IMG/VR virus record: IMGVR_UViG_3300020204_002306
Coordinates: 1-32,865 of that record
DNA: 32,865 bases
From: a virus
Strand: one strand, 5' to 3'
The position numbers and the translations under genes were made by a program. Below, piece after piece: positions 2 to 27,099 of this stretch. The notes below the pieces were generated by a model. That model did not search any database, had not been told where the DNA came from, and was given only the letters and a program-made list of their open reading frames with translations. Positions within the stretch are counted from its first letter, which is position 1. Every line of letters starts with the position of its first letter.

Positions 2-175
2 AACGGCGAAACACTGATACACAATAAACCAGTGCAGGCAGGCACCATGTTGAGTGCAGAAAAAGAATTCTATTGGCAAGGACTCAATCCCATAATGTTC
101 GAACTGGAGGAGTATGGCAATGGAGCCAATATGGACAGTAGATTTATTCAAATTGTAAGGTTCTCAGTGCTATGA
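2..175 (+). CDS. C-terminal end of an unidentified protein (partial)
   Basis: An open frame enters from the left edge and runs 57 codons to a TGA. It is read in frame 2 of the window. The residues are mixed and soluble-looking (for example EKEFYWQGLNP and FELEEYGNGANMD), with no membrane segment. The stop overlaps the start of the next gene as ATGA, so the two are probably translationally coupled in one plus-strand operon. I do not recognise the family from this short tail. A surface-glycan or other metabolic enzyme would fit the neighbour, but that is a guess. Confidence 0.6.
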   Translation, partial: NGETLIHNKPVQAGTMLSAEKEFYWQGLNPIMFELEEYGNGANMDSRFIQIVRFSVL

Positions 176-720
176 AAATACTAATGACAGGGCATACATC
201 TCCCATAGGCACAATGTTGTATGAACATTTTAAATATGACATACATGGTTGCAGTCGATCCAACGGTTATGACTTGACCCAATTGCAAGACATAGAAAAA
301 ATTGTAGAACGCAGCCTACAGTATGATCATTTTTTAAATCTAGCTCACGTGGGCACAGCTCAAACGCAGTTGTTGCATTTGATACACAGACATTGGACAG
401 CCAACAATAAGTTTGGTAAAATTGTGTCATTTGGCACACTGGGCACTGAGTTGCCTTTGAAAGTTTTACAAAGTTTAAAGACTCCCATGGAATATTTTAC
501 ACAAAAACAAAGTTTGGAAGCCTTGCACAGGCGTTTGTGTATTGAAAAACCATTTGGTCCCCAACCTCAAAGCATATTAATACGCATCATGAATTATGGT
601 GTAAAAATGGGAGAACGATCCAGTGAACCTACCTGTGACAGCATGGATGTCATACGCACTGTGGAGCATGTATTGGGAGATCCTTGCTATGTGAGCTCAA
701 TTGATTTGAGAAAAATTTAA
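172..720 (+). CDS. Short-chain dehydrogenase/reductase-like protein
   Basis: A 182-residue protein opening with a Rossmann nucleotide-binding strand and glycine loop (MKILMTGHTSPIG, residues 1-13). A central strand IVSFGTLG (84-91) sits where SDRs have their catalytic-serine strand. A Tyr-x3-Lys pair (Y108, K112) matches the SDR catalytic motif. It is shorter than typical SDRs (about 250 residues), lacking most of the C-terminal substrate region, so its substrate cannot be read. It follows the partial gene with an ATGA overlap and meets the amidinotransferase gene tail-to-tail with overlapping stops. It could be an NAD(P)-dependent reductase for a sugar or small molecule, or a degenerate binding protein. 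Confidence 0.6.
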   Translation: MKILMTGHTSPIGTMLYEHFKYDIHGCSRSNGYDLTQLQDIEKIVERSLQYDHFLNLAHVGTAQTQLLHLIHRHWTANNKFGKIVSFGTLGTELPLKVLQSLKTPMEYFTQKQSLEALHRRLCIEKPFGPQPQSILIRIMNYGVKMGERSSEPTCDSMDVIRTVEHVLGDPCYVSSIDLRKI

Positions 721-1787
721 ACAATTTGTCTTTTGCAGCCTTCACGTTTTGTATCCAACGTGAAACAATGTATTCCACCCTCCCAATACACTTGATGTCT
801 TTGATGCACCACGTGACATTCAACGCCCACAGTTTTTAAATACTTGAACAGTGCAGGAATGTGTCTGCCAAACAATACATTTTTTGAATCCAACACCACC
901 ACATTTAAATCAAAACAAACTTCCTGATTGTATCCTCTCCAATTACTAAGATATTTTTCCAGCCACAATTCAGAATATTTGCCATCTGTGCTGACATAAT
1001 CTTTCACATAATTGTCAATGTACACTTCTGAAACGTATTGTGAAATATCTATCAATTTTTTATCAAGTAATATGTTTGGCACCCATTTTAATCCGCAGTG
1101 CACTACTGTGTTGTCATCCAACATAAAGAATCCGTGATCAATGTGTCCATAATTTTTAAACACGTTCACTGGTATGTTAGGAATAAATTTGTACGCTTTA
1201 TACACTTTTTTGATCCATTCATAACCCATCTGCGTGCCAGGACCTGCAGAATTTACAATGATGCTGTCACCCAACTTGTACATGGTAGCTGTGTGCCATA
1301 ATGACTGTGTACTATAAGTGTCTTTATAAACTTTATCCGATATAAACCAACTTTCTTCAGCAGTGATATTTCTTAATTGAGGGGCAGGTTGATAGTGTAT
1401 TTGATAATTTTGTTCAGTGAAATATTTGAATATCTGATTGTAATTCAGCACATCCAAATACCTGTCAGAATAACTGGTATATGTTTGAGAGAATGTATTA
1501 TCCATAACAAAATATTGATCACGTGGCACTATGGGACACATGGGTACAGATATTTTTAAATCTCCTATGGTTACAGGTTTATCGTATCTTAACACAGTGG
1601 GTCTAAGAACTTTTATATTAGAATCTGTAAAAAATTTTGCCAACGTATCAAGATCCTGTTTAGTTTCTTCTAGAATATGATTAAATTTTTTTAAACAAGA
1701 CGTTGGTAAAAAATTATCAAGATCACCTGGTAAGTAACTGTCTCCCACTATGATCTCCTGTAATTTATCGTATTCAGTGAATATCAT
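717..1787 (-). CDS. Amidinotransferase-family protein (glycine amidinotransferase / arginine deiminase superfamily)
   Basis: A 356-residue protein with the layout of PF02274 enzymes: an opening EYDKLQEIIVGD strand (5-16), PRDQYFVMDN (88-97) matching the family's PRD motif, GHIDHGF (214-220) giving His215 and Asp217, and a C-terminal GGIHCFT (337-343) giving candidate nucleophile Cys341. The catalytic Cys/His/Asp set therefore looks intact. Family members move an amidino group from arginine to an amine, or hydrolyse guanidines. This one resembles the amidinotransferase side (N-terminal EWD-like start, C-terminal GG-x-HC). It is last in a minus operon and overlaps the oxygenase upstream as ATGA, which itself overlaps an aminotransferase. 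The neighbours suggest the aminotransferase supplies the amine acceptor. Deiminase activity is the main alternative. Confidence 0.75.
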   Translation of the reverse strand: MIFTEYDKLQEIIVGDSYLPGDLDNFLPTSCLKKFNHILEETKQDLDTLAKFFTDSNIKVLRPTVLRYDKPVTIGDLKISVPMCPIVPRDQYFVMDNTFSQTYTSYSDRYLDVLNYNQIFKYFTEQNYQIHYQPAPQLRNITAEESWFISDKVYKDTYSTQSLWHTATMYKLGDSIIVNSAGPGTQMGYEWIKKVYKAYKFIPNIPVNVFKNYGHIDHGFFMLDDNTVVHCGLKWVPNILLDKKLIDISQYVSEVYIDNYVKDYVSTDGKYSELWLEKYLSNWRGYNQEVCFDLNVVVLDSKNVLFGRHIPALFKYLKTVGVECHVVHQRHQVYWEGGIHCFTLDTKREGCKRQIV

Positions 1788-2383
1788 TGTATGAGATGTG
1801 AGTGGTTTATAAACATCTGAAGAGAGTATCTAATTGCCCCAGTTTTAGAAATTTGAGTGACAGCATGCACTTGATCACTAAGGTTAATTATAATCCTATT
1901 TTTTATTGGTTCAACAAATATTCCTTGAGTGTCATTTGCATTTTCTTTGAACACAAACAATCCGCCATTGTCCGAATCCCAGTCATCCAAAAATATGGTT
2001 ATGCCCACGTAGTCTATACTGGCGTTGGCTGCTAGACTATCCTTGTGCCATGTGGCTCTGTAAGGAGCAGTGTTCACATGATATCTTAACATGCAGTCCT
2101 TGGATTTTAATCCTTCTTCCGTTAAATGTTTTTTATCATATAAATTTTTCAAAACAATATCCACAGCAGTATTTTTTAAAAGATAATATTTGCAATTCTC
2201 TATCCCAAAATGATCTGTTTCTGCCAACAATAAATTTTTATTTTCAAGACCATCACTCTCTGTTGGGGCGTGATGTTGCTCTTTGTAGAACAGTTCACAA
2301 TTTTTCTGTGTGATTTCGTTGTCGATGGATTGTTTCAACTGTTCTAATGTCTGTTCATCAAAAAAATCATCTATTATTTTCAT
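1784..2383 (-). CDS. 2-oxoglutarate/Fe(II)-dependent oxygenase
   Basis: A 199-residue protein with the metal-binding facial triad of this superfamily: H113-K-D115 in WHKDS, distal His173 in DQVHAV, and Arg185 (RYSLQMF), twelve residues after it, to hold the 2-oxoglutarate carboxylate. The core strands VGITIFLDD and RIIINLSD frame the double-stranded beta helix. It probably hydroxylates or otherwise oxidises a small molecule or a protein side chain; the substrate is unknown. It overlaps the aminotransferase before it and the amidinotransferase after it by 4 bases each (ATGA), so all three are likely made together and may act on the same molecule. Confidence 0.8.
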   Translation of the reverse strand: MKIIDDFFDEQTLEQLKQSIDNEITQKNCELFYKEQHHAPTESDGLENKNLLLAETDHFGIENCKYYLLKNTAVDIVLKNLYDKKHLTEEGLKSKDCMLRYHVNTAPYRATWHKDSLAANASIDYVGITIFLDDWDSDNGGLFVFKENANDTQGIFVEPIKNRIIINLSDQVHAVTQISKTGAIRYSLQMFINHSHLIQ

Positions 2384-3486
2384 ATATTGCCCAAATCGTT
2401 TGATAACACTGTAAAATACTCTTTGTCAGCATTCAAAGGCATCTGATATAGATTTTTATAATCACCTTTCTGCACCATGTACATGCTGCCATATCGATTT
2501 AGTATGGTCACTCCATTGTTTTTGAAACATGCAGTTGCCTGTTGTTGTATTTGGTCAAAATTAGTGAGTGTGTGTTCTTTCTGCAGTATATCAATGTATT
2601 TTAAAGCACTGTAGATACCTGCAAGACTGAAATTGTATGTGAAGCCGTGGTCCCAATCAAAATCTTTGGGCAGCATATCATGTATTTTTTCATTGTACAA
2701 CATCATACTGAGTGGAAAATATCCTGCAGTGATGGCCTTGCCCATGGTGAATATGTCAGGTTGAATGGGCACACTTTGATATCCAAAGTATTCACCTGTT
2801 TTGCCACCACCCACAAATATGTCATCAAGTATAATCAACACATCAAACTCCTGTTGTACCTGCTGCAGTTTTTTCCAAAACTCCACAGGATTAGAGTCCA
2901 TATTGCCACCATAAGAGCAGGTCTCTACAACCACAGCTATCACTTCACTCCAGTCAATATCAGCAACATCAAAAGATCTCGGCAGTCTCTGTATGGCTGA
3001 ATATTTGGGTAGATTATAGAATGGATTTTTAAACAACAAATCACCCATGCTGTAATTTAAAAAAGTACTGCCATGATAACTGTCTTCAAAGCTGACTATT
3101 TTTGTTTTCTTTTTGTTTTGTTTGATGTGATGATAGGCAGCTGCCAATTTCACAGCACCTTCATTGGCATCACTGCCACTGAGAGCAAATACGCTCCTAT
3201 AGCCATTGCTCATGGAATACAGAGTGCTGCTCAATTGATAGGTTGCATCATTCAATCTTAATTTTTCATAATCCAGCACTGATTCAGCTATTTCAGGTTT
3301 TTTATTTTTTATTTCACTGCACACATAATCAACTATGTCATCACGCTGGAATCCCAACACAAAACAGCCATAGTGCAGCAAGGGATCCACAATTTTACAA
3401 TTGTTTTCAATCACACCAAATTGCCAGTGAGCCAATTCTTGGTGTGTGGGCTGCTGTCTACCTGGTATCAGTCCTTTGATAGTCAT
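2380..3486 (-). CDS. Class III (fold type I) PLP-dependent aminotransferase
   Basis: A 368-residue protein. GSDANEGAVK (104-113) is a variant of the GSEANE phosphate-binding motif. SYHGS (136-140) follows, as in ornithine and acetylornithine aminotransferases. LIILDDIFVGGGKTG (217-231) carries the cofactor-contacting Asp, and MGKAITAGYFPLS (248-260) places the Schiff-base Lys at 250. Enzymes of this class transaminate omega-amines or amino ketones. At 368 residues it is shorter than the usual 400-460. It begins the three-gene ATGA-coupled set (aminotransferase, oxygenase, amidinotransferase). No Shine-Dalgarno is visible ahead of the ATG. The natural amine donor and acceptor cannot be read from sequence. 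Confidence 0.85.
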   Translation of the reverse strand: MTIKGLIPGRQQPTHQELAHWQFGVIENNCKIVDPLLHYGCFVLGFQRDDIVDYVCSEIKNKKPEIAESVLDYEKLRLNDATYQLSSTLYSMSNGYRSVFALSGSDANEGAVKLAAAYHHIKQNKKKTKIVSFEDSYHGSTFLNYSMGDLLFKNPFYNLPKYSAIQRLPRSFDVADIDWSEVIAVVVETCSYGGNMDSNPVEFWKKLQQVQQEFDVLIILDDIFVGGGKTGEYFGYQSVPIQPDIFTMGKAITAGYFPLSMMLYNEKIHDMLPKDFDWDHGFTYNFSLAGIYSALKYIDILQKEHTLTNFDQIQQQATACFKNNGVTILNRYGSMYMVQKGDYKNLYQMPLNADKEYFTVLSNDLGNI

Positions 3487-3494
3487 ATTTTTAA

Positions 3495-4037
3495 TTATAG
3501 TATTTCAAATTGTAATTGATCGTATGTGATGTCCTTAGTATTATCAAAAACTTTTTTAGTTTGCACCATGAGGCGACAGTAACCACCCGCATCAATGAGA
3601 TCTTTGAAGTTGATCACTTTGCTTGCACCTTCATGATATTCTTTTCCCACATGATACACATGTTGATTAGTGCTCACAGTAATCATGTAATCATCTGATA
3701 CCTTATTGCTGCCTTGCACTGGTTCATATCTGGTGATCTGCACATGACTTTGACTCAAATAGTTGACGGGCTTGATGCTCCATTTAATTTTAGCATATTC
3801 TTCCACACCATTAAAACGTATATAATAGTTAAATTCAAAAATGTTAGGTTGATTATCTACAAAATTTATTTCAGCGTGTTTGATTATAGGTAAATTTTCT
3901 TCTGCATCATTGATATTAGAAAATATCTTTTCCGAGTTGTGATACACATCTATTTTGTTGATATAATTGTGCAGCAGCATTGACATATAACGTTTGTCAG
4001 CATCTTTGGGGCATGTTATACGCACGGTTCTATTCAT
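3495..4037 (-). CDS. Unknown conserved-looking phage protein
   Basis: About 180 residues from an ATG (MNRTVRI) that overlaps the end of the upstream gene by 8 bases. The frame stays open further upstream (to 4091), but that extension would lie deep inside the neighbour and looks non-native. The protein is beta-rich, with alternating strands such as EFNYYIRF, AKIKWSIK, DYMITVS and HVYHVGKEY. There is no signal peptide, transmembrane segment or catalytic motif that I recognise. Its place in an operon of oxygenases and an aminotransferase, 9 bases before the aminotransferase start, suggests a shared pathway or a binding/scaffold role. I cannot name a function. Confidence 0.65.
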   Translation of the reverse strand: MNRTVRITCPKDADKRYMSMLLHNYINKIDVYHNSEKIFSNINDAEENLPIIKHAEINFVDNQPNIFEFNYYIRFNGVEEYAKIKWSIKPVNYLSQSHVQITRYEPVQGSNKVSDDYMITVSTNQHVYHVGKEYHEGASKVINFKDLIDAGGYCRLMVQTKKVFDNTKDITYDQLQFEIL

Positions 4038-4623
4038 GGATGTGATCTTTGAAAATGTCCACAGCATCTTCAAATTGTAAATGAGAGCCATCCAACTTCA
4101 ATAGGGTAAAACACAATGTCCAACGATCTTCAGTCATATTGGGGTTGAATGTGCTGTGCAGTTGACCTATGTTCATTAGACTGGGTTGATTAATCACCTG
4201 TTCATGCACTAAATCACAATCTTCTTCACGTGCTGTATAAGCATCTGTGACCACTATGTCTGGCACCAATCCCACAGCTGATATGTGACGATTGTCCGGT
4301 TTGACAGGTTTAAGATATTGAGATTGTTTCACACGCCACCATCTGGTCACACTGTTGTTAGGACCCCAAGTAAAGTTTATTTTACTGGCATTGCACAGTG
4401 TGGGCGTGTCATTGTGCATGGGTATCTTGCCGCCATTTGTGGGCGTATAAAAACCTTCTATAAGATTAGAAACTTTAACATCATGCAGTTGAATCCAATC
4501 AATAATACGAGTGTCCACATGTTTGATGTCCACCAACACTATTTCGGCATGATCCAAAGGTTTAAAACAGCTGGGCTTTTTTATTGTGAAAGGCAGTTGC
4601 AGATATCTATGAAACAAGTTCAT
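4030..4623 (-). CDS. Putative 2-oxoglutarate/Fe(II) oxygenase-like protein (cupin-type fold)
   Basis: A 197-residue protein with features of the double-stranded beta-helix oxygenases. IPMHNDTP gives H70-N-D72 as a possible HxD metal pair. KINFTWGPNNSVTRWW (81-96) looks like the strand and loop common in aspartyl-hydroxylase-like proteins. GQLHST gives a distal His156, and EDRWTLCFTL gives Arg167 as a possible 2-oxoglutarate contact. The spacing fits, but overall similarity is judged by eye only. The start lies 1 base beyond the stop of the 268-residue oxygenase-like gene. A non-catalytic cupin is the alternative. Confidence 0.55.
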   Translation of the reverse strand: MNLFHRYLQLPFTIKKPSCFKPLDHAEIVLVDIKHVDTRIIDWIQLHDVKVSNLIEGFYTPTNGGKIPMHNDTPTLCNASKINFTWGPNNSVTRWWRVKQSQYLKPVKPDNRHISAVGLVPDIVVTDAYTAREEDCDLVHEQVINQPSLMNIGQLHSTFNPNMTEDRWTLCFTLLKLDGSHLQFEDAVDIFKDHIHE

Positions 4624-4624
4624 G

Positions 4625-5431
4625 TTAGTAATTTTGTAGATGATCTATGTTTAATTTTTTTCTAAATTCATCTGTGAACACACAATCAATTCGTAAACCG
4701 TATTCTTGTTCACGATTGATTTCGCCACCATGCCAGTCTTCATCGTTCCAGAAAGCAGCATTAGCATTGATATACACTTTATTTTTTGTTTTAGGATTCC
4801 AAATGTAAAATCCGCGTTTGGTGTTGTGACGTATGTGTATAAATTCATTACGATGATTACTGTAGCCCTGTTGATCACCCAGTTTACCATCTAGATCTCT
4901 GTGTTCAAATGGCTGCCCATCATGTTCACAATGAAAAAATATCACTCGTCCTATTCTTGTGATAATATTTTGATCCACTAAATTTTTTACCCAAGTGACC
5001 AATCCAGGAAAGTACTTGGATTCTTCTGTGAGATGTCTTTCTGCATTTCTCTGATCCCAATCACCTTCATTCCATAGAAAATAATAGATGTAGGGATCTT
5101 TTGCTCCCATGGCTGCTTTGAGATAGCGAGTGAACTGATTGCGTGTGCGATAATCTTTGATATTGTTCATTAAATCATCTCCGTTTTGTCTAATGGGATG
5201 ATCCACCGGCAGTGCTTTGTATTCTATCAATGCTTGATAGATAGGTTTCCAATTCAGCACGTAGCTCATATCTTTGACATCAAATCCAGGAGACATCCAG
5301 GTGCCTTCTTTGGCATATTCTCTGGCCAAAGCAAATCCTCTACATATTTCTGGATGTAATTTTTGAAAACCTTCTATGTCGAGATGTTGATCCAGAGCAA
5401 TGTATGGTCTTCCGCCAATTCCTCTTATCAT
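4625..5431 (-). CDS. Putative 2-oxoglutarate/Fe(II) oxygenase (beta-hydroxylase-like)
   Basis: A 268-residue protein with an N-terminal helical half and a C-terminal jelly-roll. FEHRDLD gives H177-R-D179. NAAFWNDEDWHGGE places a distal His at 234, and YGLRIDCVFT places Arg247 thirteen residues later; this order and spacing match the 2-oxoglutarate/Fe(II) triad plus 2OG-binding arginine. RVIFFHCEH (162-170) may be the first core strand. It is first in the minus operon reaching to 717. Only 5 bases separate its ATG from a TAAATA late-promoter-like box. Substrate unknown; peptidyl Asp/Asn/His hydroxylation is one known role of similar folds. Confidence 0.65.
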   Translation of the reverse strand: MIRGIGGRPYIALDQHLDIEGFQKLHPEICRGFALAREYAKEGTWMSPGFDVKDMSYVLNWKPIYQALIEYKALPVDHPIRQNGDDLMNNIKDYRTRNQFTRYLKAAMGAKDPYIYYFLWNEGDWDQRNAERHLTEESKYFPGLVTWVKNLVDQNIITRIGRVIFFHCEHDGQPFEHRDLDGKLGDQQGYSNHRNEFIHIRHNTKRGFYIWNPKTKNKVYINANAAFWNDEDWHGGEINREQEYGLRIDCVFTDEFRKKLNIDHLQNY

Positions 5432-5436
5432 GCAAA

Positions 5437-5452
5437 TATTTACCGTTAAATA
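5437..5452. promoter_or_regulatory. Back-to-back divergent late-promoter-like boxes
   Basis: The 16 bases tatttaccgttaaata contain GGTAAATA on the minus strand and GTTAAATA on the plus strand, touching each other to form a near-palindrome. Each resembles the T4 late-promoter box (consensus TATAAATA). They would fire left into the oxygenase gene (ATG at 5431, gap 5 bases) and right into the GNAT-like gene (ATG at 5471, gap 18 bases). The interval 5432-5470 has no other visible signal. Confidence 0.45.
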
Positions 5453-5470
5453 TTATCACAAAAATACATC

Positions 5471-6799: not shown

Positions 6800-7489
6800 A
6801 TGAATACAAATTTCGAATACTATTATAATCATGTGCCTGGCAAAGATCCCTCCAGAAACAATTTGATTTATACCAGTCTTATCAACAAAGATCGCACAGT
6901 GTTCGTGCAGTGGTTCCATAATGATTCTGCCTATCACAAAGGATATAACGAAGTTTTAGATCAGCATCTTATGCTGGCCAAATGGCAAAGAGAGTGCGAT
7001 ATGTTGAGCAAAATGCAGCACACATTTGCGGACCATGTGCCCAAAATTATTGACATTGATCATGCAGAAAAAAAAATATATTTGGAGATACAGAACGTAG
7101 ATTTTTGGGAACAAAGTCACGGTAAGGAATTCACACAAGTGTTGCCAGACTGGCAATCACAGATGTTGGAAATTATACAAGCACATCAGCAACTTGGACT
7201 TTACAAATACAGTCTACACCCCAGCAGTTATTTTATAGTGAATGGCAAGTTAAAAAGTATCAACTATTTTTTTTGTTATCATGAGGATGAACCTGCAATT
7301 ACAGTGCAAGATCATCTCAGCCACATATCACACAATCGAAGACAACATGTGTATGATCATATGGCACGCATGGGTATCAATGTGAATCAACCCACTGATT
7401 ATAAAAAATTGCAAATATTATGTCTAAAAAGTTTTAGTGATTGTTATCCTAAACAATTTATAGACCAAGCAATCAAGTTGTTTCAATAA
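6800..7489 (+). CDS. Kinase-fold-like protein, function unknown
   Basis: A 229-residue soluble protein. TVFVQWFHND (33-42) could be the N-lobe strand. An EVLDQHLMLAKWQRECDMLSK helix spans about residues 51-71 (position guide only), followed by VPKIIDIDHAEKKIYLEIQNV, the usual hinge-forming strands. Later GLYKYSLHPSSYFIVNGKL resembles the HxD catalytic loop of antibiotic-phosphotransferase/lipopolysaccharide-kinase proteins, but with HPSS in place of HxDxxxxN and no clear DFG. It may therefore be a pseudokinase or a distant phosphotransferase. It is followed after one base by the radical SAM gene on the same strand, so they are likely co-expressed. I cannot assign a substrate. Confidence 0.45.
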   Translation: MNTNFEYYYNHVPGKDPSRNNLIYTSLINKDRTVFVQWFHNDSAYHKGYNEVLDQHLMLAKWQRECDMLSKMQHTFADHVPKIIDIDHAEKKIYLEIQNVDFWEQSHGKEFTQVLPDWQSQMLEIIQAHQQLGLYKYSLHPSSYFIVNGKLKSINYFFCYHEDEPAITVQDHLSHISHNRRQHVYDHMARMGINVNQPTDYKKLQILCLKSFSDCYPKQFIDQAIKLFQ

Positions 7490-17126: not shown

Positions 17127-17981
17127 CTATGTTCCCCATGCATTTTTAAACAATGGCACCTGCAATCTGTCACTGTATCTGTAACCCATCTTCATTGCCA
17201 TCTGAGCCACTGCGCGATTGTTCATGTAGTACACATTTTCTACTCCGCCCACTGGCATTAGATACACTGAGCCATTGAATCCTTTTTTTCTATACATATC
17301 TGTGACCTCAACAGCTTCATGCACATCATCAATATTGGCCACCACATATTTCAAATATGCGTGTCCCACTGATTGGTATTCAGCAATCACATCAGGTTTG
17401 ATTGCGTCTTCTCTCTTTTCACCACTCACACTCAATTTAGCACTGACAGAAAATGTAATAGACTCTCTAGTTCTTCCATTTTTGTTACTCCATTTTATGA
17501 GATAATCTTTGAAATCTTTGTGTAGAGATTGAGTGCCATTAGTTTCAAATGTGATTTCTTTCAGCGGCTGCATGTGTTCATGTTCCAAAAGATCTGGATA
17601 GCTCTTCTGCCATCCCAGCAATGGTTCACCACCTGTGAATATGAAATGTTCATCCTGCCAACGATTGTTGGGCAATAAAGCCATTGTTCTTTCAGCTATG
17701 ACATCTGATTGCAGCAGTGGTGACAAATGTTTGAATCTTGGATCCCAAGAAGCATAGCTGTCACAACCTGTGTCCACCAAAGGCAGTTCATTGTAAGTTT
17801 TAAATTTGTCTATGTCTCTGTGCACCAAATCATTCTGTGTGCTGCGTTCACCTTTGGGCATGCCGAATCCAGCACAGGTGAAATTACAGCCGAAAGTTCT
17901 CAAGAACACACTGGGCACACCCATGTATCGGCCTTCACCCTGTATGCTGTAAAACAATTCTGCCACTTTGATCTTGCTCAT
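17127..17981 (-). CDS. queE: 7-carboxy-7-deazaguanine synthase (QueE), split cysteine motif
   Basis: A 284-residue radical SAM enzyme. ELFYSIQGEG (8-17) and FLRTFGCNF are typical of QueE. C32 and C36 start the cluster motif (C-x3-C). The third cysteine is C73 in TGCDSYASWD, which matches the WCDTxYAW signature, so about 36 residues are inserted before it (KGERSTQNDLVHRD and so on). FTGGEPLLGWQ (115-125) is the SAM-binding motif, and ITFETNGT follows. QueE turns 6-carboxytetrahydropterin into 7-carboxy-7-deazaguanine, the third step of the preQ0 pathway. FolE is two small genes upstream and the QueD-like gene 5 kb upstream on the same strand. Confidence 0.85.
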   Translation of the reverse strand: MSKIKVAELFYSIQGEGRYMGVPSVFLRTFGCNFTCAGFGMPKGERSTQNDLVHRDIDKFKTYNELPLVDTGCDSYASWDPRFKHLSPLLQSDVIAERTMALLPNNRWQDEHFIFTGGEPLLGWQKSYPDLLEHEHMQPLKEITFETNGTQSLHKDFKDYLIKWSNKNGRTRESITFSVSAKLSVSGEKREDAIKPDVIAEYQSVGHAYLKYVVANIDDVHEAVEVTDMYRKKGFNGSVYLMPVGGVENVYYMNNRAVAQMAMKMGYRYSDRLQVPLFKNAWGT

Positions 17982-18344: not shown

Positions 18345-19031
18345 CTATCTTGGTGCAAATTGTTGTTGCAAATTAATATTGTCCATGAATTCTTTTTTAG
18401 TACCAACATCATCTTTGAAAGCTCCTTTTAACACAGTGGTTTGTGTGAGTGAACTGTGTGCCATTATGCCTCTATTTTCGCAACAGCCATGTGTGGCCTG
18501 TATGTACACTCCTAAATCTTTAGCCCCAGTGGCTTTTTGTATTTCGTCAGCGATGCTGTTGCACAGTGCCTCCTGCAGTGTGCCTCTCCTAGCACACCAT
18601 TGTGCTATTCTTGTGTATTTGCTCAATCCTATCACTTGACCGTTGGGTATGATGCCAATGTATGCCACACCATTTACTGGTTGATGGTGATGACTGCACA
18701 CAGATTTTAATTCAGAACGTATCACCAGCATTCCTGTGTAGGCGTGTTCACCCACATTGGGGAACGCAGTGGCATCTGGTCTCGATTCATATCTACCACT
18801 CATTAACTCTGTGAGATACATTTTGGCCAATCGCTTGGCAGTGTTTTTGCTGTTGGGATCATTATCTGTGTCAATCACAAGACTGTTCAACACTGATGCG
18901 AAAGACTGAGCCAATTCTTGTTCTAACAATGGCAGTTCTCCCTGCTCTATGTGTGCTGCAATGTTGTCATTGGCATGAAATTTAGCTCCAGCCGCAGTCA
19001 ATCTTTGTTTGATCTTTTCAGATACTTTCAT
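18345..19031 (-). CDS. folE: GTP cyclohydrolase I (FolE)
   Basis: A 228-residue protein. NTAKRLAKMYLTELMSG (63-79) is the conserved N-terminal helix. C112-S-H-H115 (VCSHHHQPV) and C183 (THGCCENRG) are the three zinc ligands. GVAYIGIIPNGQVIGLSKYTRI (121-142, given by its ends) is the GTP-binding core. The enzyme makes dihydroneopterin triphosphate from GTP, the first step of both folate and deazaguanine pathways. With QueD-like and QueE proteins in the same array, the deazaguanine route is the better reading. It is normal length for type IA. Confidence 0.92.
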   Translation of the reverse strand: MKVSEKIKQRLTAAGAKFHANDNIAAHIEQGELPLLEQELAQSFASVLNSLVIDTDNDPNSKNTAKRLAKMYLTELMSGRYESRPDATAFPNVGEHAYTGMLVIRSELKSVCSHHHQPVNGVAYIGIIPNGQVIGLSKYTRIAQWCARRGTLQEALCNSIADEIQKATGAKDLGVYIQATHGCCENRGIMAHSSLTQTTVLKGAFKDDVGTKKEFMDNINLQQQFAPR

Positions 19032-25430: not shown

Positions 25431-25621
25431 ATATCCAATTGTTTTTTATATTCTTCTATCTGTGTTTTAAGCGCCAGTTTAATCTTTTTGTAATTTTTCA
25501 ACAATACCTTGCTTTCCCAACTTCTATCATAGTCACGTTCCTGTTCCATCTCCGCTGTCTTTCTATGATAATAATCAAATTCTCTTTCTAATTTTTTTAG
25601 ACTTTTATTTTTTTTACTCAT
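25427..25621 (-). CDS. Small charged helical protein
   Basis: 64 residues, almost wholly helical and charged (KSLKKLEREFDYYHRKTAEM, then LKTQIEEYKKQLD), so probably a coiled coil. Start ATG overlaps the DpdA-like stop by 4 bases, and its own stop overlaps the oxidoreductase start. It resembles short DUF465-like proteins in style, but I cannot assign a function. Between DpdA and the metabolic genes it may be a DpdA-linked accessory, or unrelated filler. Confidence 0.6.
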   Translation of the reverse strand: MSKKNKSLKKLEREFDYYHRKTAEMEQERDYDRSWESKVLLKNYKKIKLALKTQIEEYKKQLDI

Positions 25622-27084
25622 TGTACCTCCTCAAACAAGTTAGAAAATTGTGTGCTGGCATTCACCGTTTTTTTCCCAGTGGCTCCTCTAGTGCCAATTA
25701 TGCTCATCCAGAATCTACTGTATTCTTCAATCACTGCTTCAGCAGTGTCTCTACTGTCAGTGGAAAATACTGCTTCAACAATGTGTTTGAATTCAGTTTT
25801 GTCAAACTTTTCTTCTACCAACATAGCAGGCTTCAGTCCTTGATCATATTTTCTATTTGCCTCCTGCACAGCAAAAATGTGTGTCCAAACATTGTGAGCC
25901 ATCTGCAAAGCATAACTGAAACTATCCCAAGATGTTCTGCCTTCCTTGCCCATTTTGTTCTTATCACCTGGCGCATAACAAGTGATGTCCTTCAGGGTTA
26001 ATCTTTCACTGATTGGACTGTCTTCAAAATTATCAAATATTTTTTCCTGCAGCACAGCGTCTCTAAATTTGCGTGTGTCTGTGGCATATTTTTTATCATC
26101 AATGCTGGGAGCCATTCTATAACTCCATTTGTCTCTATCTTTGATGTCTGTTTCTATGTACAGTTGCCCATTTGCTGTGGCTAGAAAAGGTGAAGCACAA
26201 TCAAAAGATATGGTAAAATTTTCATTGTGATATTTTCTCACAGCTCTTTGTATGTCTGTCAACAACACTGCCCACTCCAGTTTGCTGGTGCCTAAAAAAT
26301 GCATCCAATCATGCACTCCTTTTTCCAACAGTCCATCAAATCTCAAAGCCACCAGTCTTTTCAGCACAAGATGCACATCACACATATTTTGTCCTCCCAT
26401 TGCCCATCCATTAAAATGTGTTGTAGGATATTTTTTTGGATCGCAGTAGTCTTTCATTTGATCATACCAATCATCTGCCTGCTGGAAGTTTTCACCCTGT
26501 AATACGTTTAGAAATTTACAACTGCCTGTTCTATGTTTCATAAAATAATCATTGTTAATTCTTGTGCCATCCACAGCTTCCTGATAAGAATTGATATTGC
26601 TGGCTTTGGCTCCTTCTGGAGAACGCGATACCCAAGCAGGAATATCCAATATCATTCCGTAGTCCATGTTAGCATCCATCCATGCAAGCACTTGCTCTCG
26701 TTTTTTCTTCGCTTTGACACAGTTAACATCTTTCCAATTACCTTCCCATACACCTTTGCCTATCTGAAATCCGCCAGAGTCGCCCAATACAAAATTGTGA
26801 GAGCGATTTCTATTTCTGATTATTTCATCACGCACAGATGGCTTATTCATATTTAGGTCAGCATGTCCTGCTGAATACAAATGCCACTTGTAATAGAAAT
26901 AAGTGTTGTTGGGACTAAGATAATTCATACCTGCTACCCCGTGATTGAATTGTTGTGGCATACGTTTGGCAGCAATATAATCTTTTACCATCAGTGCTTT
27001 GCCTAATTCACTGGCATAAAAACTGCTCAGAGCAGGCAAAAATACTGCGTAGTCTTTCTGTTGTGCTGTCAAATCAGTGTGCAT
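25618..27084 (-). CDS. dpdA: DpdA-like transglycosylase (TGT-superfamily, DNA 7-deazaguanine insertion)
   Basis: About 488 residues from ATG; a TTG one codon earlier is also open. LGDSGGFQIGKG (about 100-111) is the TGT active-site motif with general Asp102. LNVLQGENF (192-200) and GWAMGGQNM (226-234) are the substrate loops. LGTSKLEWA and FTISFDCASPFL include the nucleophile Asp295. The tRNA TGT zinc motif CxCxxC is not present, as expected for proteins that modify DNA instead. DpdA proteins swap guanine in DNA for a preQ0-type base. Adjacent genes are the sliding clamp upstream and small helical and oxidoreductase genes downstream. tRNA modification is the alternative. Confidence 0.82.
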   Translation of the reverse strand: MHTDLTAQQKDYAVFLPALSSFYASELGKALMVKDYIAAKRMPQQFNHGVAGMNYLSPNNTYFYYKWHLYSAGHADLNMNKPSVRDEIIRNRNRSHNFVLGDSGGFQIGKGVWEGNWKDVNCVKAKKKREQVLAWMDANMDYGMILDIPAWVSRSPEGAKASNINSYQEAVDGTRINNDYFMKHRTGSCKFLNVLQGENFQQADDWYDQMKDYCDPKKYPTTHFNGWAMGGQNMCDVHLVLKRLVALRFDGLLEKGVHDWMHFLGTSKLEWAVLLTDIQRAVRKYHNENFTISFDCASPFLATANGQLYIETDIKDRDKWSYRMAPSIDDKKYATDTRKFRDAVLQEKIFDNFEDSPISERLTLKDITCYAPGDKNKMGKEGRTSWDSFSYALQMAHNVWTHIFAVQEANRKYDQGLKPAMLVEEKFDKTEFKHIVEAVFSTDSRDTAEAVIEEYSRFWMSIIGTRGATGKKTVNASTQFSNLFEEVQ

Positions 27085-27099
27085 CAAGTGTATTTTACG

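Follow-up and report, generated by a model that had tools for sequence, protein, structure and literature searches.

The 32.9-kb virus record IMGVR_UViG_3300020204_002306 (32,865 nucleotides), which we analyzed whole and refer to as the window, carries a class III aminotransferase gene (AT3) and an amidinotransferase-like gene (AmdT) within an uninterrupted run of six minus-strand genes. We put at about one half the probability that this run is a virus-specific biosynthetic operon which attaches a guanidine group to a small acceptor molecule. Related sequences place this set of enzymes, which appears to work as an assembly line, in many uncultured viruses akin to marine phages. The run extends from 5431 to 717 in the order Oxy6, Oxy5, Unk4, AT3, Oxy1 and AmdT, and a plus-strand gene, SDR, converges on AmdT, the ends of the two genes overlapping by 4 nt. 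The genes are as follows:

717..1787, minus strand: AmdT, pentein-family L-arginine amidinotransferase-like protein, 356 amino acids
1784..2383, minus strand: Oxy1, 2-oxoglutarate (2OG)-Fe(II) oxygenase, 199 amino acids
2380..3486, minus strand: AT3, class III pyridoxal 5'-phosphate (PLP) aminotransferase, 368 amino acids
3495..4091, minus strand: Unk4, tandem beta-sandwich protein by predicted structure, with a conserved start at 4037
4030..4623, minus strand: Oxy5, 2OG-oxygenase-like by its residue pattern, 197 amino acids
4625..5431, minus strand: Oxy6, first in the run, 2OG-oxygenase-like by motif reading alone, 268 amino acids
172..720, plus strand: SDR, short-chain dehydrogenase-like protein with TGHxxxxG and YxxxK motifs, 182 amino acids

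The original prediction, made from the window alone, was a three-gene system of aminotransferase, oxygenase and amidinotransferase joined by two overlaps. Both overlaps, AT3/Oxy1 and Oxy1/AmdT, are real and measure 4 nt each. The added statement that the three proteins are made in a fixed ratio is not supported, as overlaps of 4 nt permit coupling and give no stoichiometry; nor do our data support any of the acceptors suggested with it (glycan, DNA or polyamines). The three genes are likewise real, but the pathway is larger than proposed: it takes in the upstream oxygenases and the SDR gene, which lies beyond the stretch first delimited, and in other viruses it is joined by a SpeD-like decarboxylase and a protein of the DUF6875 type.

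Scans of viral contigs yielded 127 relatives of AmdT and 115 of AT3, of which the best 80 of each were kept. Linkage was counted over distinct protein sequences with enough flanking DNA. Because the searches were seeded on AmdT and AT3 and the contigs are fragmentary, the counts are not population frequencies: AT3 lies within 2.5 kb of AmdT for 50 of 53 distinct AmdTs, and AmdT lies within the same distance of 50 of 61 distinct AT3s. Homologues that never co-occur, on which the original prediction was to fall, were not seen. The set recurs in order on divergent viral contigs, beyond what chance would give, and we rejected the idea of an operon special to the window contig on account of this wide recurrence. 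Additionally, the pairwise distances of AT3 and AmdT are correlated across 22 representatives spanning 31–95% and 44–85% identity, respectively (Mantel r = 0.84, p = 2e-4), indicating that the pair has largely travelled together.

Around this constant pair, the oxygenase genes are exchanged or multiplied. Overlaps of 4 nt are usual among the cluster genes of relatives, and most loci have at least three oxygenase-family genes close to AmdT. In loci of the L047, L058, L073 and L122 type, c49 and c43 (oxygenase-like by motif) replace Oxy5 and Unk4. Tandem copies of Oxy5 reach four in L032, where the diverged copies occupy 1345-3771 upstream of AT3. An oxygenase-like gene is almost always present at AT3-AmdT loci while Unk4 is not; thus, we argue that oxidation, transamination and amidination form the working core. 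The contexts of the pair include the window clade, a T4-like group in which it neighbors helicase and primase genes (names read from the translations of the T4-like contigs, not from family searches), a group flanked by radical SAM genes, a 236-kb contig, and a group that also has c8, a SpeD-like gene and a flavin halogenase. The flavin-dependent halogenase (Trp_halogenase) lies in the cassette neighborhood at L087 2248-3807 and L099 8911-10515. In T4-like carriers, a NodU/CmcH-type carbamoyltransferase is encoded between the helicase-like and primase-like genes (L018 12082-13080). Contigs L146-L180 have AT3 and the 2OG-oxygenase-like c18 flanked by T4-like core genes; these AT3-only contigs, which are fragments, yielded no AmdT. 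As a candidate replacement for AmdT at such loci we considered the next gene, c27, which reads as a recombination endonuclease and was set aside, not conclusively given the fragmentary contigs.

AmdT by itself matches no Pfam or NCBIfam model. As a single sequence it matches HsvA, its closest solved relative, with an E-value of 8.5e-14, and its family profile matches HsvA (7e-48), SxtG (2e-36), AGAT (5e-36) and StrB1 (8e-35) with almost full-length homology. The catalytic residues singled out by the original prediction are kept, Cys341 in 68 of 68 and His215 in 68 of 69 sequences, so that the loss in close relatives that was to count against it was not seen. Asp90 and Asp217, which likely bind arginine, are also retained. 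In AGAT the catalytic triad consists of Asp254, His303 and Cys407 (PMC3684758, PMC2844391), and Asp254 primes the catalytic histidine (PMC2844391). His215 and Cys341 of AmdT align with His303 and Cys407, and His165 aligns with the triad aspartate. All 65 of 65 core AmdT members have histidine at this position and so lack the triad carboxylate of pentein amidinotransferases; aspartate occupies it in HsvA, SxtG, AGAT, StrB1 and CP220, and glutamate in distant bacterial relatives. To judge from this alignment, His165, which the original prediction did not remark on, may alter catalysis. Because the triad aspartate is replaced, canonical amidinotransferase chemistry is not supported.

The enzyme identities originally assigned agree with the family matches: AT3 to Aminotran_3 (E 2.7e-39), Oxy1 to 2OG-FeII_Oxy_3 (E 1.8e-7) and AmdT to HsvA. 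The active site of AT3 is intact, with Lys250 present in 71 of 71 sequences, and the loss of this residue that was to count against the original prediction was not encountered. AT3 falls in no named equivalog such as BioA or ArgD, as the listed NCBIfam scores are far under their cut-offs (for bioA, 136 against 405 bits). In L003, a partial copy of the AT3 C-terminus, 37.7% identical to the window AT3, lies between AT3 and Oxy1 (7208-7471). Oxy1 has a facial triad and distal arginine, H113-x-D115, H173 and R185, invariant across 20 relatives. The two further oxygenase-like genes predicted upstream are borne out, Oxy5 by the corresponding H70-x-D72, H156 and R167, invariant in 23 sequences, and Oxy6 by an H-x-D ... 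H ... R pattern read by eye without alignment. Oxy5 matched no family, and hhalign of Oxy5 against the Asp_Arg_Hydrox-type set gave nothing significant.

The predicted "unknown beta-rich protein" is Unk4, which was modeled as a tandem beta-sandwich with a predicted local distance difference test (pLDDT) score of 89. The model gave no informative structural match and no recognizable enzyme fold. The conserved start of Unk4 is Met19, at 4037 and not 4091, so that the gene overlaps Oxy5 by 8 nt, which is also the spacing most often seen in relatives. We rejected the idea that Unk4 is an enzyme or an essential part, since no enzyme fold was recognized in it and many loci lack it. For SDR, TGHxxxxG and YxxxK are kept in 11 distinct sequences, and the Pfam Epimerase match is below cut-off. 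SDR occurs in three arrangements: convergent with AmdT (window clade), in an SDR-c8-AmdT run (L099 and L101; L102 with one extra gene in between), or overlapping the end of AT3 (L159 and L160). A scan for promoters and terminators gave no signal stronger than in shuffled sequence. Directly before the Oxy6 start codon, at 5435-5454, is a perfect 8-bp inverted repeat, AATATTTA-ACGG-TAAATATT, a possible operator. Further along, 6800-7489 encodes a 229-amino acid protein that is kinase-like by eye, has no family match, and recurs in the cassette neighborhood of L099/L102 and of the window clade.

Two additional partners connect some of these clusters to arginine. The gene c8, encoding a protein of ~145 amino acids, lies next to AmdT or to the AmdT cluster at many loci, and some loci have a SpeD-like gene adjoining AmdT. 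SpeD-like genes are present in 10 of the 30 carrier contigs searched, and beside AmdT the SpeD-like domain can be fused to c8 (L105 6855-7652, L082 5544-6359 and L142 8177-8974). The SpeD-like part is ~51% identical to its counterpart in pelagiphage HTVC201P, a proven decarboxylase of arginine and not ornithine; other phage relatives use ornithine (PMC9992855). DUF6875 is matched by 6 of 17 c8 members (best 7e-5). The PDB match with the highest TMq among those listed for the c8 model is the heme arginine hydroxylase AglA, at 0.43 with a non-significant E of 1.2. Published work describes DUF6875 proteins as oxidases that bind heme (PMC13307353); AglA, a guanidine hydroxylase with thiolate-ligated heme, uses Cys44 (PMC12866846). 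Cys27-Pro28 is invariant in c8. Together these sequence and model features are suggestive of a mini heme-thiolate hydroxylase-like protein.

In the pathway we propose, one or more of the 2OG-Fe(II) oxygenases would hydroxylate a carbon, converting C-H to an alcohol, and SDR or a second oxidation would turn the alcohol into a carbonyl. Acting as an alcohol dehydrogenase, SDR would provide the carbonyl needed by AT3, which with PLP would convert it to a primary amine. AmdT would then transfer the amidino group of L-arginine, via a covalent Cys341 intermediate, to the amine and release ornithine. Amine formation followed by amidino transfer, the order originally predicted, is sound as chemistry. 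Of this scheme, the linkage and co-inheritance of the genes, the enzyme families and most active-site residues are established, and the reaction order, the role of SDR, the acceptor, the product and its purpose are inferred. In viruses that have it, the SpeD-type pyruvoyl decarboxylase would use arginine or ornithine as substrate, and by removing ornithine would pull amidino transfer forward; the DUF6875-like partner would act, where present, as a heme-thiolate hydroxylase on the same arginine pool. Most likely, the acceptor is an intermediate produced in the course of infection, small and diffusible, of an arginine/polyamine-like or specialised-metabolite kind. A bolder version, which we hold only tentatively and consider on the unlikely side, is a modular C-H-to-guanidine pathway, so far viral only, in which a His-His-Cys amidinotransferase, a SpeD-derived arginine or ornithine decarboxylase and a mini heme-thiolate hydroxylase jointly yield an arginine mimic, either as a diffusible infection metabolite or as the side chain of a new, positively charged DNA base.

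Several observations weigh against a small-molecule guanidinylation pathway. For about one fifth of AT3s the contig, often a short one, lacks AmdT, and a few AmdTs (L079, L080 and L103) have no nearby AT3. No ligase and no transporter for the product was identified. Neither c8 nor SpeD was seen in the window or in the long contigs most closely related to it, and the AglA fold match is statistically weak. Lastly, the His165 substitution could signal altered or non-transferase chemistry. Its uniformity across the core members, against aspartate or glutamate elsewhere, and the priming role of Asp254 in AGAT would fit an AmdT that is no longer an amidinotransferase and instead, for example, hydrolyzes arginine or uses a different donor; we regard this as very improbable, with His215 and Cys341, the nucleophile, still present alongside Asp90 and Asp217, which probably bind arginine. 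It is also improbable, if less so, that AmdT is a standalone auxiliary metabolic gene making guanidinoacetate for a creatine route, or a guanidino polyamine, independent of its neighbors. A glycine amidinotransferase annotation in a virus survey (PMC8226683), the reported enrichment of the creatine-pathway enzyme GAMT in ocean viruses (PMC11360552) and the relationship to HsvA favor such a role, but AmdT is near-obligately linked to AT3, co-diverges with it, and is usually surrounded by at least three oxygenase-family genes. Placement of guanidino groups on a viral or host surface macromolecule (a glycan, a lipid or Unk4) is unlikely, though a contender to be taken seriously. Unk4, without a recognized enzyme fold, lies inside the operon in 72 loci, some of them overlapping; a glycosyltransferase, an epimerase and an Mtd_N fibre-like protein are encoded nearby in the window; and the amidinotransferase of S-SCSM2R adjoins kdsA/kdsB and 2OG oxygenase genes. 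However, many AT3-AmdT loci lack Unk4 (e.g. L087-L098 and the L047 type), the neighbors vary by lineage with no conserved glycosyltransferase partner seen, and the S-SCSM2R protein is a distant homologue without the PRD Asp and the triad region.

The remaining alternative is that a base of the phage DNA receives an amino or guanidino side chain from these enzymes, as a means of evading restriction. Three features of the window bear on it:

17127-17981: QueE homologue, by homology
18345-19031: FolE homologue, by homology
25618-27087: protein with a TGT-like DSGGFQ motif

These genes, the third of which has relatives among Pseudomonas jumbo phage proteins, hint at a 7-deazaguanine pathway in the window. 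The same genes are found with the cassette in G029 and G032 and also in the 236-kb G038, which has FolE, QueE and QueD. Additionally, T4-like contigs have the cassette beside helicase/primase genes and a carbamoyltransferase, and phages are known to ligate small amines to modified bases, as in 5-carboxymethylcytosine-glycine (5cxmC-glycine; PMC12783734). Against this, a thymidylate-synthase-type enzyme (PF00303) was found in 0 of 22 contigs, the 236-kb contig included, with positive control genomes and incomplete contigs. This led us to reject hydroxymethylcytosine- or hydroxymethyluracil-type (hmC/hmU) modification. QueC was found in 0 of 18, and Pfam assigns no nucleic-acid-oxygenase family to Oxy1 or Oxy5. 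The TGT model did not match the DSGGFQ protein, and its identification as DpdA was set aside because it has the motif alone and TGT, PADLOC and PDB searches were negative. FolE/QueE homologues were also not found in three 84-92-kb T4-like fragments with the cassette. Because of the absent thymidylate synthase homologue, the negative DpdA searches and these three fragments, we hold DNA modification as a minority reading and think it rather improbable.

We favor guanidinylation of a small acceptor. Among isolate phages the full set was not found: AmdT relatives there reach no more than 37% identity and align over short stretches only, AT3 matches are generic, and Oxy5 and Unk4 have no match. An AmdT profile scan of 84,980 species genomes, which depends on short patterns, so that divergent relatives could escape it, found no close cellular relative; the best proteins are 21–24% identical and mostly from candidate-phyla bacteria. 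A cellular source of AmdT was rejected given this low identity and the glutamate at the triad position of those proteins. No publication on the gene set was found in the open-access literature. If the proposal is correct, environmental viruses run a multistep pathway of specialised-metabolism type, whose guanidino product is required by no known phage process, and infected cells contain a new arginine sink. It would also define a new amidinotransferase active-site type, with histidine for the triad aspartate, and offer oxygenase, transaminase and amidinotransferase genes as a compact system for testing. Protein families annotated as hypothetical or as glycine amidinotransferase gain a function hypothesis.

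Compared with known systems, AmdT shares near full-length homology and the Cys-His pair with HsvA, AGAT and SxtG, which are only remotely related and differ from the core members in the triad carboxylate. The Campylobacter phage CP220/F379 amidinotransferase is likewise a phage-encoded pentein homologue, 23.8% identical to AmdT, but its neighbors are radical SAM genes, neither AT3 nor a 2OG oxygenase is annotated next to it, and it keeps the triad aspartate. c8 resembles the DUF6875 and YqcI/YcgG heme-thiolate hydroxylases (ZigI, AglA and GntA) in its weak DUF6875 match, invariant cysteine and AglA-like model; in contrast to these, it has merely ~145 amino acids, is absent from the window, and its heme binding is putative. 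The SpeD-like gene product, a predicted decarboxylase, is comparable to the phage SpeD-derived arginine/ornithine decarboxylases, with ~51% identity to that of HTVC201P, but here its gene is linked to AmdT and in some contigs fused to a DUF6875-like domain. A parallel in logic is the streptidine/streptomycin route, in which a dehydrogenase oxidizes to a carbonyl, an aminotransferase transaminates and StrB1 amidinates with arginine. The viral operon has the same logic and an amidinotransferase homologous to StrB1, and the combination of dehydrogenase, aminotransferase and amidinotransferase in one cluster is present at 172-3486 of the window and in relatives. It differs in being viral, in having 2OG oxygenases alongside, in its class III AT3, and in the histidine for the triad aspartate; no cyclitol kinase or phosphatase was identified by the operon, and no search was aimed at cyclitol kinase. 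The streptidine-like logic is known; within the reach of these searches, its viral form, its pairing with oxygenases and the histidine triad are new.

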